DNA from: Oscillospiraceae bacterium
GTDB taxonomy: Bacteria > Bacillota > Clostridia > Saccharofermentanales > Saccharofermentanaceae
DNA length: 10,486 nucleotides
Assembly (NCBI GenBank): GCA_902782985.1
Contig: CACZPC010000120.1
Location: 1-10,486, forward strand
Direction of reading: 5' to 3'
In this document: positions 2,025 to 8,194 of the stretch, piece after piece
Layout of the letters: each line of letters opens with the position of its first letter
Position numbering within the stretch: the first letter of the stretch is position 1
Translations under genes and position numbers: made by a program
Notes under the pieces: model-generated
The model's input: the letters and a program-made list of their open reading frames with translations, nothing else
Told to the model about the DNA's origin: nothing
Database searches by the model: none

Positions 2025-2058
2025 ATTATATTAGCAACCCGAGATCAAAATCCGTCAA
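2025..2058 (-). promoter_or_regulatory. Candidate promoter of the NlpC/P60 gene
   Basis: Minus-strand TTGACG (2058-2053, overlapping the ABC-F stop codon) is 17 bases from GCTAAT (2035-2030). A perfect TATAAT (2030-2025) lies immediately after but would need a 22-base spacer. Either -10 would give a leader of about 65-75 nt before the ATG at 1953. No terminator is visible between the ABC-F gene and this point, so read-through from ABC-F is also possible. Confidence 0.4.
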
Positions 2059-3524
2059 ACATGAGGCAAAACGACCTTCGCATCAGCCACCGCCTCCTGA
2101 AAAGAACGGTCATGCTCGACAAAGAGCATGGTTATATCACTCTCTTTGACAAACCTCTCGATCTCCTTTCGCATATAGATATCTATATAATTCAAAGGCT
2201 CATCCCAGATATACAGATCAGCATGTTCACACAGGCTCAATGCTATCAGTACACATTTCTTCTGTCCCAGCGACAAGGAATCCGCATCACGTCTTAACAT
2301 ATCAGGCGTAAATCCCATCTTTATAAGAATGGTATTAAATAGCGTCCTGTCGACACCTGCATCAGCGGCGAACATATCGATATTTCCTTTCAGCAAAGAT
2401 GTGTCCTGACCTACATAGGAGACCTTAAGGCCCTGTGCAATATTGATGTCGCCTGTTGCCGCTATCCCCTCCGAATCGTTTGTCCCCGCAAGATACTTGA
2501 GGATAGTGCTCTTGCCCGATCCGTTGCGTCCGATAAGGGCAGTCTTCTTCCCTTTCTCCAGTACGATATCTACACCGCTTACGACGGGATATCCGTCCCG
2601 CATGAATACTGCATCCTTGATGAGCACCGGGATCCTGCTGTGATGATCGCTGCCCGTGATCTTAAGTCTCTCCGTCTTCTCCAGATCCTTAAGAAGGCTT
2701 TGCTTCTCCTCAAGCTTTTTCTCATTCCTGTTCTGAAGATTCTTTGCAAGAGACATCAGCTTTCTGGCCTGCTCGCCTTCGTACGCGCGCCTGAAATGGT
2801 CTTCCTTGACCTTGCTCGAAGCATGTGCTCTGTTCTTGCTCCTCTCCGCCTTGGCAGACCACGAAGCATTCTTCTTCATCGCGGATTCGATGGATGACAT
2901 CTCCTTTTTCAGCTGTGCATTTCGAGCCTTCTCATTCTCCATGCGATCTTCGTTATTCTCCCACCAGACCGAATAAGTCGCATTGACGAGCTCCGGTCCC
3001 GTCTTGGCAATGACGAGCGTGTGGTCGGTACAGCGGTCAAGGAAATCCCTGTCATGTGAGATCAGTATAAATCCGTCCTTGCTCCTTAAATAATCCGCGA
3101 CCTTTTCGCGGCCTTCCATATCCAGATGATTGGTAGGTTCGTCTATCAAGGGATAAGCATTTTCCGAAGAAAAAAGAGATGCCAGCATGAGCTTGGTCCT
3201 TTCTCCGCCCGACAACGTCTCGAAAGGCCTGTACATGATATCGGGATCTGCACCCATCTGATTCAATTCCTTGCGGATCTTCCAATCCGGTACATTCGGG
3301 ATCTCACGTGACGGGAATGATACTATAGGCGGCACCCCTGAGATCTCTCCCTCATATTCGACCTCTCCTTTAAGGATCTTGAAAAATGTTGTCTTACCTC
3401 TGCCATTTCGCCCGGCAAGCGCCAGACGCCATGAAGTGTCGATACCGATATTTACATCCCTGAATAAGAAAACATCAGTGCCATCATATCCGAATGACAT
3501 ATTCTTAATGTTTATCAAAGCCAT
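2055..3524 (-). CDS. Lsa-type ABC-F ribosome protection ATPase
   Basis: A 489-residue cytosolic protein with two ABC ATPase domains and no membrane segment. Family members bind the E-site of antibiotic-stalled ribosomes and push the P-site tRNA so that the drug leaves. Lsa types typically protect against lincosamides, streptogramin A and pleuromutilins. Domain 1 has Walker A GRNGRGKT (38-45), signature LSGGE (104-108), Walker B LIDEPTNHLD (126-135) and switch His157. A charged, helical inter-domain linker (about 185-290) corresponds to the arm that reaches the peptidyl-transferase centre. Domain 2 has Walker A GRNGSGKS (332-339), a looser signature LSLGQ (417-421), IWDEPLNYID (439-448) and His471. 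The RPFETLSGGE, PLIDEPTNHLD and YIWDEPLNY blocks are close to Lsa(A). The start at 3524 has GGAGG 5 nt upstream; a longer in-frame start 13 codons earlier has none. Expression is probably controlled by the leader at 3525-3698. The exact drug profile cannot be read from sequence, and a housekeeping ABC-F paralogue is possible. Confidence 0.9.
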   Translation of the reverse strand: MALINIKNMSFGYDGTDVFLFRDVNIGIDTSWRLALAGRNGRGKTTFFKILKGEVEYEGEISGVPPIVSFPSREIPNVPDWKIRKELNQMGADPDIMYRPFETLSGGERTKLMLASLFSSENAYPLIDEPTNHLDMEGREKVADYLRSKDGFILISHDRDFLDRCTDHTLVIAKTGPELVNATYSVWWENNEDRMENEKARNAQLKKEMSSIESAMKKNASWSAKAERSKNRAHASSKVKEDHFRRAYEGEQARKLMSLAKNLQNRNEKKLEEKQSLLKDLEKTERLKITGSDHHSRIPVLIKDAVFMRDGYPVVSGVDIVLEKGKKTALIGRNGSGKSTILKYLAGTNDSEGIAATGDINIAQGLKVSYVGQDTSLLKGNIDMFAADAGVDRTLFNTILIKMGFTPDMLRRDADSLSLGQKKCVLIALSLCEHADLYIWDEPLNYIDIYMRKEIERFVKESDITMLFVEHDRSFQEAVADAKVVLPHV

Positions 3525-3550
3525 ATTTACCTCCGTGTCTAAAATGCGGA

Positions 3551-3579
3551 GAACAAAAACCACGGCCCTGAAGCCGCGG
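3551..3579 (-). terminator. Attenuator terminator hairpin upstream of the ABC-F gene
   Basis: On the minus strand CCGCGGC (3579-3573) pairs with GCCGTGG (3566-3560), seven pairs including one G-U, with a 6-base TTCAGG loop. TTTTTGTT follows directly. It stands about 35 nt before the ABC-F start codon, inside the transcript of the upstream promoter, so it can only act as a conditional terminator. Confidence 0.8.
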
Positions 3580-3638
3580 CAGAAAGCAATATTATATAAA
3601 AGAACACAACAAAAACTCTCCGCATGAATATCAGATTA

Positions 3639-3659
3639 TCAGCAGAAAGTCTTCTTCAT
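3639..3659 (-). CDS. Six-residue leader peptide MKKTFC controlling the ABC-F gene
   Basis: ATG at 3659-3657 opens a six-codon frame (Met-Lys-Lys-Thr-Phe-Cys) closed by TGA at 3641-3639. It is preceded by an excellent ribosome site, AAGGAGG at 3673-3667, 7 nt from the ATG. So strong a site in front of such a short frame, about 25 nt downstream of a good promoter and followed by an intrinsic terminator, is the signature of a regulatory leader ORF. Codons 4-6 form the RNA segment that pairs with 3623-3616. A drug-stalled ribosome here would change folding downstream. It is unlikely to have a role as a peptide. Confidence 0.75.
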   Translation of the reverse strand: MKKTFC

Positions 3660-3692
3660 CGGTGTTCCTCCTTATCTTGTGATCATAAGCTG

Positions 3693-3721
3693 ATGATACA
3701 GTAATCTCTTACTGCGGTCAA
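3693..3721 (-). promoter_or_regulatory. Sigma-A promoter of the leader ORF / ABC-F unit
   Basis: Minus-strand TTGACC (3721-3716) and TATCAT (3698-3693), each five of six to consensus, are spaced by exactly 17 bases. The -35 box overlaps the stop codon of the thioesterase gene. Transcription would begin near 3686, shortly before the leader ribosome site at 3673. Confidence 0.75.
3699..3714. promoter_or_regulatory. Palindrome filling the -35/-10 spacer (candidate operator)
   Basis: A perfect inverted repeat, CAGTAA-N4-TTACTG (3699-3704 and 3709-3714), occupies 16 of the 17 spacer bases of the ABC-F promoter. No U-tract follows, so it is not a terminator for the thioesterase gene. Its position suits a dimeric DNA-binding regulator, but no regulator gene is in the window. 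Confidence 0.45.
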
Positions 3722-4107
3722 CAGGTCCTGTATCCGACCATTGTGGCAGTAGCGATAAGTCTTCCGTCCTCATCGGTAACCCTAACGAGATAATTAGCTA
3801 TCGTCCTGCCGTTCTTGATGACCTCAGTCTCTGCATAGAGAAACCTGCCGCGTGCAGGAGCATTAAAGACAATACTCGAGTTGAGAGTTATGGATTCCGA
3901 AGGACCGCAATTAGCCGCCAGAGCAAATGTAAAATCCGCAAGAGTATAGATGCAGCCGCCCATGACTACATTATTACCGTTCAGATGCTTGTCCTCGACG
4001 GTAATACGCGTCTTAGCATATTCCTCGCGGACCTCCAGTATCTCGATCCCGGTCAGTGCCGCATATCTGTCATTGGCGAAATATCTCTTAACTTCCTCAG
4101 GCTGCAT
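3718..4107 (-). CDS. PaaI-like hotdog-fold thioesterase
   Basis: A 129-residue cytosolic protein, the usual length of a single hotdog domain, probably hydrolysing an acyl- or aryl-CoA thioester as a dimer or tetramer. The family core is seen as HLNGNNVVMGGCIYTLAD (about residues 41-58). Asn43-Gly44, Gly50-Gly51 and Asp58 occupy the conserved positions of PaaI-type enzymes, whereas the common His of the HGG motif is Met49. Later strands carry NSSIVFNAPARG (about 76-87) and the typical VxDEDGRLIATATM ending (about 110-123). The ATG at 4107 lies inside the end of the upstream gene, overlapping it by 11 nt, so the two are translationally coupled. The substrate cannot be told from the sequence. 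No terminator follows; the ABC-F promoter begins at its stop codon. Confidence 0.85.
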   Translation of the reverse strand: MQPEEVKRYFANDRYAALTGIEILEVREEYAKTRITVEDKHLNGNNVVMGGCIYTLADFTFALAANCGPSESITLNSSIVFNAPARGRFLYAETEVIKNGRTIANYLVRVTDEDGRLIATATMVGYRTC

Positions 4108-4879: not shown

Positions 4880-7624
4880 TCAAGCCTGATAGAATGTACC
4901 GGACGTGCTTCCGGGAGCAGGTGTTCCTGCAGGTACAATGAGGATCTCAATACCCTCGAGTCTGTAAGCATAACCTGCACTACCACAGGATTCACCGTCA
5001 CATGCCCAGCCTGTCCAGCCGAAGTTCTGTACGTGTGTTCTGTAATAGATATCATACTCGTCGGCATTCACACCCGTAAGCTGGATCTGGATAGCCTCAA
5101 GTCTCAAGGACTGACCTTCCGTACCCGAGAAGCCGCCGTCCGATGTCCAGCCGTCTTCCCATCCGATATTCTGGATGTGAGTCCTGTATTCTACGCCTAC
5201 GCCGTCAAGACCGTTAACACTGATGTGGATACCCTCAAGTCTCAAGGATCTTCCGGTCGTACCTGCACAGAGACCGTCTGTAACAGCTGACTGCCATCCG
5301 ATATTCTGAACGTGCGTATCGTAAGAGATATAGTTTACAGACTGTCCCTTGGGAACGATCTTAATCTGCATACCCTCAAGTCTCAATGACTGTCCGGATG
5401 TACCTGCAGTCTCACCGTTCTTTACCCAATCCATCCAGCCGATGTTCTGGACGTGAACTCTGTAGTAGATATCATAGTCGGCAGCAGCAGAACCCGTAAG
5501 TTCGATCTGCATAGCCTCAAGACGCAGGCTGTGTCCCTGAGTACCTGAAGCCTCACCGTTATAGTGCCAGTCAGACTCCCAACCGATATTCTGGATGTGA
5601 GTCTTATATCTGACTCCGAGATCAAGGTTAGACTGTACATTGATCGCCATAGCCTCAAGTCTTAAGGAACGGCCTTCCGTACCGGCCATAGCTCCGTCAT
5701 AGACGTAGTCCTGCCAACCGATATTCTGAACATGAGTGCTGTAATTGACCGATACATCGGAACGTGTAGCACCGAGGACCGAACCGGGTGCGGAAGGAGC
5801 CACAGCAGATCCTACTGCAGATGCTGCCGAAGAGCTCGAAGAGCTCGAAGAACCTGAGGAGCTCGAAGATCCGGATGATCCGGAGGAACTTGAAGAACCT
5901 GATACACCGGAATAATAGAGAACTACGTTGTCATTATTACCCTGTGTTCCCGGACCGTTACCGCCGACAATCGAAGAATAGGAAGCAGCACCGTCAAGGT
6001 TGAAGATCTTATTGACTGAGGCCTGAAGTTCGCCCGAAGTCATGCGGCCGTGAGGATAGCAATAATCACCGAAAGGCTCCAGAACTCCGAACTGCATAGC
6101 CCATGTGAATGATGCCCAGCCGTAGTATTCAATATCGTAAAAATCGCTGTACCAGTCTGTTCTTCCGTAATCAAGTGCGACACCGAATCCCATATAACCT
6201 GCAAATCTGTGAGCCATAAGAGCAAAATCCTCTCGGCTGACCAGATCATTCGGGCAGAAAGAATCAGAACAGATATACGGATAACCGAAGCAGATATTGT
6301 ATGTCTCTGCCCAAGCTACTGCCTCTTCATAAGAAGTACCGTTTACATCATTAAATCTGGAGCCTCCGCCTACAGATGGAGATCCTGCAGCTTCATAAAG
6401 AGCCTGAACAGCCTGACCTCTCGTTACAAAGGAAGAACCGGAATGTCCGTCATTAGTTGTCGTATAGCACTCGGAAACGATCGAAGGATTGCCGCCGGAC
6501 GTAACAACAGTCTTACCGTCATCAACAACTACACAGTGTGTAAGATCACAGAAATATTCATCTGTTCCGCCGAATTCGATAGTGTATGAATGAACGTCAC
6601 CGAGATGAGATTCATGAGCATATGCACCCTCGTTATAGGTCTTGATGAGATAAGGATTATTACTTATGTTGACCGAAGGAAGATCACGCATACCGTATGC
6701 ATAGAGATTATAAAGCTGCGGATTACCCGAAAGATCAAGAGATGTCAGTTGATAATCGCAATCAAGTCGAAGATCTGCAAGTCTTGGGTTATTTCTTACG
6801 TTAATAGAAGTAAGATTATCGTTAAAACCCGCGATAAGGAGCATAAGATCAGGCTGATTACTCATATCAAGACTCGTACAGTTAGTCTTTGCGCAATTAT
6901 ACATTTCAAGTCTTGTATTATTGCTGAGATCAACATTTCCGATCCCCCAGTTATCCCAGATGTCGAGTCTCTTAAGAAGAGGATTATTGGTAACATCAAT
7001 GGATGTAAGGTGATTACTGAAGCAATTCAGTTCGCAAAGCAACGGATTATTGCTTACATCAAGACTATAAAGACCGCAGTTACTGCAGAACAGATTCTCA
7101 AGCTGAGGATTGTTGCTGATATCAATGCTTCCGAGATTCGGATTATTATTACACTCAATGTAAGCGAGATTCGGATTGCCGGAAAAGTCGATCGAAGTCA
7201 GCTGATTACCGAAGCAGTATACCCATTCAAGATTAGGAAGATCGGTAAGATCAAGCTCGGTAAGCTGATTATTGGAACACCATATACCCGTAAGATTGGG
7301 ATTCTCGGAAAGATCAAGCTCGGTGATCCTGTTATTAAGACACCAAAGTCCGATCGCATTCGGGAAGTATTTGATTCCCTCAACCGAATAAACATTGCTG
7401 TTCTCACACTTAATGTTGTTAACAATGCCACGCTCGCTGTCAGAAAGATAACCATTACCGTCCGTATCATAAACCCTGACACAGTTTCTGAAATTCGGAT
7501 CCGGGAAATGTGCGCCGTCGATGGCAATACCGTTTCCAGCCGCAAATACAGGTAACCCGCCCGTACATTGAAGCATGATTCCCGCAGTAAGCGCGGATAC
7601 AATCATTTTAGATAAACTTTTCAT
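4880..7624 (-). CDS. Large secreted surface protein: LRR, SLH-like segments and six ChW repeats
   Basis: A 914-residue exported protein. Residues 1-29 are a signal peptide (basic start, hydrophobic core, VFA-A cleavage). An EF-hand-like loop YDTDGNGYLSDSE sits at about 52-64. Eleven leucine-rich repeats of 21-22 residues (about 95-330) follow the scheme LTSLDLSxNPxLxxLxCxxN with a recurring Cys. Residues 393-545 resemble SLH modules (VTRGQAVQALYEAAGSP; FNDVNGTSYEEAVAWAE; CPNDLVSREDFALMAHRFA; WYSDFYDIEYYGWAS), with the first apparently incomplete. A Ser/Gly linker (about 573-610) leads to six ChW repeats (about 627-905), each built around THVQNIGW and GTxGxSLRLEA. SLH modules usually hold proteins to the wall, and LRR and ChW modules are usually taken to bind partners or polysaccharides, so an adhesin or surface-binding role is likely; no catalytic domain is visible. 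The ATG at 7624 has GGAAAGGA 8 nt upstream. The frame runs 21 codons further upstream, but that extension would place extra residues ahead of a complete signal peptide. Confidence 0.93.
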   Translation of the reverse strand: MKSLSKMIVSALTAGIMLQCTGGLPVFAAGNGIAIDGAHFPDPNFRNCVRVYDTDGNGYLSDSERGIVNNIKCENSNVYSVEGIKYFPNAIGLWCLNNRITELDLSENPNLTGIWCSNNQLTELDLTDLPNLEWVYCFGNQLTSIDFSGNPNLAYIECNNNPNLGSIDISNNPQLENLFCSNCGLYSLDVSNNPLLCELNCFSNHLTSIDVTNNPLLKRLDIWDNWGIGNVDLSNNTRLEMYNCAKTNCTSLDMSNQPDLMLLIAGFNDNLTSINVRNNPRLADLRLDCDYQLTSLDLSGNPQLYNLYAYGMRDLPSVNISNNPYLIKTYNEGAYAHESHLGDVHSYTIEFGGTDEYFCDLTHCVVVDDGKTVVTSGGNPSIVSECYTTTNDGHSGSSFVTRGQAVQALYEAAGSPSVGGGSRFNDVNGTSYEEAVAWAETYNICFGYPYICSDSFCPNDLVSREDFALMAHRFAGYMGFGVALDYGRTDWYSDFYDIEYYGWASFTWAMQFGVLEPFGDYCYPHGRMTSGELQASVNKIFNLDGAASYSSIVGGNGPGTQGNNDNVVLYYSGVSGSSSSSGSSGSSSSSGSSSSSSSSAASAVGSAVAPSAPGSVLGATRSDVSVNYSTHVQNIGWQDYVYDGAMAGTEGRSLRLEAMAINVQSNLDLGVRYKTHIQNIGWESDWHYNGEASGTQGHSLRLEAMQIELTGSAAADYDIYYRVHVQNIGWMDWVKNGETAGTSGQSLRLEGMQIKIVPKGQSVNYISYDTHVQNIGWQSAVTDGLCAGTTGRSLRLEGIHISVNGLDGVGVEYRTHIQNIGWEDGWTSDGGFSGTEGQSLRLEAIQIQLTGVNADEYDIYYRTHVQNFGWTGWACDGESCGSAGYAYRLEGIEILIVPAGTPAPGSTSGTFYQA
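4907..5746 (-). repeat. Tandem duplication of a three-ChW unit (2 x 420 bp)
   Basis: The six HxQNxGW motifs begin at residues 631, 676, 724, 771, 816 and 864. Each of the last three is exactly 140 residues after its partner in the first three. Partner repeats also share flanking words: IELTG/IQLTG then YDIYYR, and IKIVPKG/ILIVPAG. The array is therefore two gapless copies of a 140-residue triplet rather than six independent repeats. The DNA copies have diverged visibly. Confidence 0.85.
5828..5905 (-). repeat. Ser/Gly-codon low-complexity linker
   Basis: Short imperfect repeats of GAGCTCGAA and related units encode the Ser/Gly-rich linker between the SLH-like and ChW parts. Several different Ser codons are used, so this is selected composition as much as simple slippage, although repeat-length variation between strains is plausible. 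Confidence 0.7.
6635..7342 (-). repeat. Eleven leucine-rich repeats
   Basis: The repeat starts (TELDL, TSIDF, GSIDI, YSLDV and similar) fall at about residues 101, 122, 143, 165, 186, 207, 229, 250, 272, 294 and 316, giving a 21-22 residue period. Most repeats end in NP or NN and carry a Cys in the following strand. Confidence 0.85.
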
Positions 7625-8164: not shown

Positions 8165-8194
8165 ATTATATATTGAAGTCAGGCAAAATGTCAA
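8165..8194 (-). promoter_or_regulatory. Consensus sigma-A promoter of tRNA-Thr
   Basis: Minus-strand TTGACA (8194-8189) and TATAAT (8170-8165) are both perfect, spaced by 18 bases. Transcription would start near 8158, about 10 nt before the mature tRNA 5' end. Confidence 0.9.

Follow-up and report, generated by a model that had tools for sequence, protein, structure and literature searches.

In the leader of Bacillus subtilis vmlR, as the cited account describes it, a short upstream open reading frame (uORF) lies within a 5' anti-antiterminator hairpin and is followed by an intrinsic terminator; a hairpin near the gene sequesters the Shine-Dalgarno (SD) sequence, and pairing on the read-through transcript is proposed to disrupt it (Takada 2022, PMC9226507). 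A vmlR-type uORF variant, MRK, occurs in other Bacilli, and NusG-dependent pausing is documented for vmlR (PMC9226507). Clostridioides difficile cplR, as described, combines transcription and translation attenuation, and its uORF start codon is essential (Obana 2023, PMC10201436). Its uORF, MR[I/M], begins with methionine and a basic residue, as does the published uORF of vmlR2, MK[L/Q], but not those of vmlR (MIN) and lsaA (MAGN). The lsaA leader has a predicted uORF, MAGN (PMC10201436); the msrD leader encodes MYLIFM, at whose stop codon a macrolide-specific, peptide-dependent stall is reported (PMC10314930); and the Listeria ABC-F gene lmo0919 is induced by lincomycin, with attenuation (PMC6310831, PMC10201436).

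The leader analyzed here precedes an ABC-F gene on the minus strand of a 10,486-nt stretch (hereafter, the window; contig CACZPC010000120.1, assembly GCA_902782985.1) from a genus that we take by inference to be Saccharofermentans. Going by the published descriptions, it resembles vmlR in having a uORF within a 5' hairpin, a terminator and, by prediction, SD sequestering and a candidate read-through pairing, and differs in its uORF (MKKTFC versus MIN) and in the ABC-F subfamily of its gene. With cplR it shares the start of the uORF, a uORF-sequestering 5' hairpin, a terminator and, as we propose, dual control; in cplR the SD is covered by the stem of the terminator, whereas in the window a separate segment beyond the terminator is predicted to cover it. 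LsaA is the nearest PDB relative of the window ABC-F protein, and a uORF is predicted in the lsaA leader; a comparison limited to the two peptides sets MAGN against MKKTFC. The msrD leader also has a six-codon peptide and an intrinsic terminator before an ABC-F gene, but its reported stall needs the peptide, whereas in the window's genus codons 3–6 drift and 7/70 uORFs stop after three codons. The lmo0919 leader may have a fold similar to that of the window-type leader.

Our searches found no paper on Saccharofermentans with ABC-F and, in the open-licence literature, none on MRKTIC, MKKTFC, MRKTVC or MKKTIC; among the matches listed there, no title or abstract opening names this leader. Since the peptide has no literature match and the logic is that of the published vmlR and cplR leaders, we take the leader as an addition to a known type: a probable uORF attenuator with a well-resolved set of relatives across the genus. 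We consider it probable (roughly 70%) that it is a drug-inducible, vmlR/cplR-like attenuator acting on both transcription and translation of an ABC-F ribosome-protection gene.

Leader architecture and the ABC-F gene

A preliminary description, made from the sequence alone, had listed a strong ribosome site, a six-codon ORF (MKKTFC), a terminator and two exact copies of CTTTCTGC, and all are present in the sequence (Table 1). The copies lie at 3649-3642 and 3586-3579, and GCGGAGAG (3623-3616) can pair with either through 8 pairs, two of them G-U. The terminator stem has 9 pairs, 6 of them G-C. Folded over 3510-3686, the leader reaches −52.2 kcal/mol (z −3.54), and 0/200 shuffles are equally stable. 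In this minimum-energy state (MFE), which is the fold without a ribosome, the uORF hairpin (helix 1:2) is formed and extends well past the 8-mer, over most of the uORF and its SD.

Table 1. Features of the leader and its flanks in the window, numbered from the first letter of the window
Feature	Position	Strand	Basis or remark
Thioesterase gene just upstream of the leader	3718-4107	-	before the leader in 5/70 loci
Sigma-70-type promoter, TTGACC-17-TATCAT	3693..3721	-	consensus matches 10/12
uORF Shine-Dalgarno, GGAGG	3667..3671	-	sequence
uORF MKKTFC-stop, ATG 3659 to TGA 3639; 5' arm (segment 1) of the uORF hairpin	3639..3659	-	
Segment 2, 3' arm of the uORF hairpin	3599..3625	-	1:2 present in MFE
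AUGCGGAGAG in segment 2, also able to pair with segments 3 and 4	3625-3616	-	
Segment 3, GCUUUCUGC, candidate antiterminator partner of segment 2	3579..3587	-	9 pairs with GCGGAGAGU
CUUUCUGC of segment 3	3586-3579	-	sequence
Intrinsic terminator, stem 3580-3559, U-rich tail to 3552	3552..3580	-	pattern search
Segment 4, GUUCUCCGCAU, complement of segment 2	3544..3554	-	2:4 covariation; 4:5 helix in MFE
CUCCG in segment 4, complement of the ABC-F SD	3551-3547	-	
ABC-F Shine-Dalgarno, ACGGAGG	3530..3536	-	sequence; CGGAG:CUCCG paired in MFE
ABC-F ribosomal-protection-like ATPase, 489 aa, Lsa-like; start ATG 3524	2055..3524	-	

Transcription in the window would begin near 3686. Promoter-like sites with at least 9/12 consensus matches occur within the 75 nt before the uORF SD in 64/70 orthologous leaders, compared with 26/350 single-base shuffles, and in 62 of these 64 the −10 element ends 17-25 nt before that SD. 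No Rfam riboswitch or T-box family scored above its gathering threshold at the leader, the window's only match being a tRNA. That tRNA (8148-8076) has a 12/12 promoter match directly upstream (8165-8194, minus strand). Also on the minus strand, 4883-7624 encodes a protein of 914 aa that combines leucine-rich repeats with an S-layer-homology match and, following a Ser-rich linker, six ChW repeats.

The ABC-F protein passes the NCBIfam model ribo_prot_ABC_F (NF000355; 395.5 bits, cut-off 380). Its earlier label, 'Lsa-type', is apt as far as kinship goes, since the best PDB sequence match is LsaA (7nhk, 349.7 bits; next match 147.4), and too strong as a family assignment, the score against ABCF_Lsa_all (NF000167) being 514.8 bits against a curated cut-off of 750. 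A role in resistance is suggested by family alone.

The uORF and its hairpin across the genus

Genus genomes provided 74 ABC-F places, from which 70 leaders were taken, leaving out two C-terminal fragments without a start (G055:C86, G072:C58) and two genes of 40% identity (G066, G040). Every leader has a uORF, of six codons in 63 and three in 7. Codon 2 always encodes K or R (AGA, AAG, AGG or AAA), while codons 3-6 drift, MRKTIC being found in 35/70 (L033 counted). Codons 2-3 pair with U-rich sequence; codon 2 could begin with G and keep this pairing, yet in none of the 70 leaders does it do so. The constancy of codon 2, the drift of codons 3-6 and the three-codon forms fit stalling within the first two or three codons. 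Two of the three-codon ORFs (L042, L071) nevertheless keep the bases ATCTGC or TTCTGC, which pair with segment 2, after the stop; in a third (L041) the corresponding bases are partly changed. This pattern fits a role as RNA for the uORF bases beyond the first codons.

Helix 1:2 forms in every one of the 65/70 leaders that were folded, with a mean of 22 expected pairs (range 13-27). In an alignment of 55 of the 70 leaders, which omits 7 leaders lengthened by insertions and 8 distant leaders, the GGAG of the uORF SD is invariant and 91.5% of 1:2 cells are paired, as opposed to 33-57% when the arms are slid. Covariation is weak because the helix is mostly invariant: 15/500 shuffles reach its pairing percentage and 40/500 its covariation score, and 5/200 partner permutations (a test run on 66/70 leaders) attain the real score.

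ABC-F genes (E <=1e-90) were found in 73/85 genus genomes, and a covariance model of the 5' domain (R2; E <=0.01) matched beside ABC-F in 66/85, the best match in each of these 66 lying just upstream of the gene by coordinates. R2 was built from 25 of the leaders that it finds, and its 20-pair structure was supplied because the automatic consensus of the 5' domain retained just 7 pairs. None of the 12 genus genomes lacking an ABC-F match at 1e-90 has an R2 match; the seven with ABC-F and no R2 match carry a 40%-identity ABC-F gene (six) or a gene fragment (one). Incompleteness is common among these genomes (the one that contains the window is at 73%), so a missing gene or leader is weak evidence. 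With a uORF in 70/70 leaders and a 5' domain that co-occurs with the gene, the preliminary assignment to the uORF-based, ribosome-mediated attenuators before ABC-F genes is supported.

At a threshold of 0.001, R2 matched 13 of 391 genomes drawn from across the class, and 9 of these 13 belong to the genus; among the other four matches, one precedes an ABC-F gene and three have no ABC-F in the stretch examined. The match in G480 (L193, E 7e-4) precedes a 39%-identical ABC-F gene of another family of the class, and five matches outside the genus (G124, G090, G416, G461, G472) have no ABC-F gene within the 2.3-2.8 kb examined. The first codons of the L193 uORF read MRI, and its leader also has a terminator-like hairpin. 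Further weak R2 matches occur in the family (G111:C71, E 0.044) and as second matches in G046 and G050.

Twenty more ABC-F upstream regions, 18 from other genera of the family and 2 from this genus, precede proteins ~39-45% identical. Their uORFs read MRK-stop in 12, MRR or MKR in 2 and MRKSSC in 1 (L153), with none visible in 5. The MRK-stop leaders (L158-L163, L165, L166 by eye, L168, L170-L172) are differently built and precede ~40%-identical ABC-F genes. L153, from another genus of the family, precedes a 45%-identical ABC-F gene match that holds two stop codons; its uORF, like those of the window genus, has six codons and ends in Cys.

Pairing of segment 2 with segment 4

The preliminary description had overlooked a partner of segment 2 that lies after the terminator, UUCUCCGCAU (3553-3544, minus strand), which is better than the terminator-side CTTTCTGC. 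Here AUGCGGAGAG(U) at 3625-3615 complements (G)UUCUCCGCAU at 3554-3544 through 10-11 pairs; a helix as long, spanning at least 60 nt, arose in 23/1000 shuffles of 3538-3636. Across the genus, own partners score 22.17 for 2:4, compared with a mean of 18.78 and a maximum of 19.89 for permuted partners (0/200 reach the own score). Double-change cells number 20 against 6.4 in shuffles (0/500 reach this), and 89.4% of cells are paired as opposed to 31-50% when slid. By these sequence comparisons, 2:4 is the most clearly covarying of the switch helices.

Lineage-specific sequences keep the helix: CGGAUAAGUC:GAUUUAUCCG in its usual form, GCGGAGAAUC:GAUUCUUCGC, GCCUGCGGA:UCUGCAGGC and, in an outgroup of 50% identity, GCGGCGGAG:CUCCGCCGU. 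Nearly all of the 48 leaders with GCGGAUAA have 9-11 perfect 2:4 pairs; the exceptions to 2:4 are L059, L061 and L071, with merely 5 contiguous pairs. The 12 labels given to segment-2 types need 11 changes on the ABC-F tree, that is, repeated change (the tree covers 66/70 rows, and 3 rows with 2 labels fall outside the 2:4 test).

Segment 4 also bears on translation. In the window, 2:4 and helix 4:5, in which CUCCG pairs with the CGGAG of the ABC-F SD, use the same segment 4 bases, so 2:4 would free that SD; segment 2 resembles the SD that it replaces in this pairing. Masking the uORF as for a ribosome whose P site holds codon 2 or 3 makes 2:4 the most stable state (−37.3 kcal/mol), 0.7 kcal/mol below 2:3; masking as for codon 1 in the P site instead favors 2:3 (−38.6, against −37.3 for 2:4). 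The full-length 2:3 state is predicted to retain 4:5 and to pair the terminator 3' arm (3571-3561) with bases around the ABC-F start (3525-3515). Because 2:3 thus keeps 4:5 and occupies the start region, 2:4 rather than 2:3 looks, under one energy model, like the translation-ready form.

The predicted effect on SD access is small. In the window access goes from 0.07 to 0.09 on masking, since little energy separates the 2:3 state from the 2:4 state. Over 65 leaders the mean is 0.40 unmasked and 0.44 masked, with a rise of at least 0.1 in 16 and a fall of at least 0.1 in 6; for most relatives, then, the folds do not predict that the SD is released. The rises include the window's nearest relative, L009, and L069-L072, the outgroup of 50% identity. 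Mean access stays at 0.48 on masking in the 47 GCGGAUAA leaders that were tested, 6 of which show a rise of at least 0.1 and another 6 a fall. Local pairing takes up at least half of the SD in 21/45 GCGGAUAA leaders. A GAUUUUC:GAGAAUC hairpin considered as the holder of the SD in most relatives was rejected, being literally present in 6/48 GCGGAUAA leaders.

These observations bear on whether control could be mainly translational, exerted by 2:4 against 4:5 at the ABC-F SD, with a terminator that merely limits leakage. Such a scheme would suit the segments 4 of the window, of L009 and of the distant L069, each of which contains the anti-SD, and in cplR with a mutated poly-U translational control alone was, as described, enough (PMC10201436). 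It sits poorly with the indifference of the 47 GCGGAUAA leaders to masking and with the terminator stem, which is conserved and covaries in the genus (14 double-change cells, compared with 5.0 in shuffles). We regard it as rather unlikely, at about one chance in five, and prefer attenuation at both levels.

As 2:4 can form only after the polymerase has passed the terminator, and has no predicted SD effect in most Saccharofermentans species, it might instead serve as a post-termination latch: on read-through mRNA it would stop segment 2 from re-forming the uORF hairpin and thereby prolong the induced state. We think this idea unlikely; if true, it would be a job done by neither antiterminator nor anti-SD.

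Inserts interrupt the region in some leaders. Hairpin-forming ones of ~57 nt (~165 nt in L010) lie between segment 4 and the ABC-F SD in L010, L024, L028 and L038; they share AAACACTGAT...CTGACGCAC and resemble small mobile repeats, and segment 4 still adjoins the terminator. In L051, L052 and L054, other inserts separate the terminator from segment 4, which is still near the SD.

Segment 3, the terminator and a proposed mechanism

The preliminary description took the duplicated 8-mer as its key evidence. Duplication of any 8-mer is not rare by itself (628/5000 dinucleotide shuffles of 3544-3661), whereas duplication with a complement between the copies is (20/5000). The window's arrangement is thus real, but the exact CTTTCTGC duplication occurs in 1/70 leaders and the terminator-side copy in 7/70, so the duplication is not what the genus conserves. 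Own partners of 2:3 score 15.43 against a permuted maximum of 15.13 (0/200 permutations reach the own score). The own score is helped by seven leaders with CUUUCUGC beside the terminator, which occupy four places on the ABC-F tree, three of them near the base of the close relatives; the arrangement may therefore be ancestral, though the forks there are poorly supported.

The proposed exclusivity of two states, 1:2 plus 3:4 (off, in the earlier numbering) and 2:3 (on), is not supported as drawn for the window: 2:3 and the terminator have only 2 nt in common there and, by the computed energies, can coexist. There, the 2:3 antiterminator with a 7-bp terminator comes to −28.0 kcal/mol, a shortened antiterminator with the full terminator to −27.0, and 2:4 with the full terminator to −27.6. 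Folding with and without a masked uORF, the check that had been suggested, gives a terminator loss that is weak: mean occupancy falls from 0.95 to 0.86 over 65 leaders and from 0.97 to 0.94 in the window. Equilibrium folding thus gave no support for a strong antiterminator; antitermination by 2:3 is kinetically plausible. Between segment 2 and the terminator, 29/68 leaders have TTNTTT, a motif to set beside the NusG-dependent pausing documented for vmlR.

A purely transcriptional attenuator, off with 1:2 and the terminator, on with 2:3 (CTTTCTGC with GCGGAGAG) and with segment 4 idle, could draw on the 2:3 complementarity, which is real and exceeds all permuted partners, and on the GCGG or CGCGG of segment 2, for which the 5' arm of the terminator itself offers a partner in most relatives. 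Given the 2-nt overlap, the single exact duplication and a 2:4 covariation that it leaves unexplained, we judge it improbable, somewhat more so than mainly translational control. Slightest of all is the chance that the thioesterase gene upstream simply has an ordinary terminator here, in the intergenic stretch, with uORF and complementarities arising by accident: that gene does end at 3718, just before the leader, but within the rest of the 420 nt upstream of each ABC-F gene it directly precedes the leader in only L001, L009, L059, L061 and L066 of the 70 loci. The leader, by contrast, remains next to ABC-F, all 70 leaders have the uORF, and 2:4 covaries.

We observed the elements and their complementarities, their conservation and covariation throughout the genus, and the masked and unmasked folds; from stalling onward, through the identity of the drug, antitermination, read-through and SD release, the attenuator acting at both levels is described conditionally. 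Without drug, the uORF and its SD would be folded in the long 1:2 hairpin, the terminator would form and most transcripts would end near 3552; on leaky read-through transcripts, CUCCG would cover the ABC-F SD. Inducing drugs would be those that stall ribosomes in the first codons. A ribosome so stalled would cover segment 1 and free segment 2, which could weaken the terminator via segment 3 and, once RNA polymerase is past the terminator, pair with segment 4, lifting the anti-SD off the ABC-F SD.

The leader suggests that this genus, whose members are anaerobes of gut and rumen, carries on its chromosome a resistance-type ABC-F locus that is inducible, and its naturally covarying, genus-wide set of sequences could separate antitermination from SD control.
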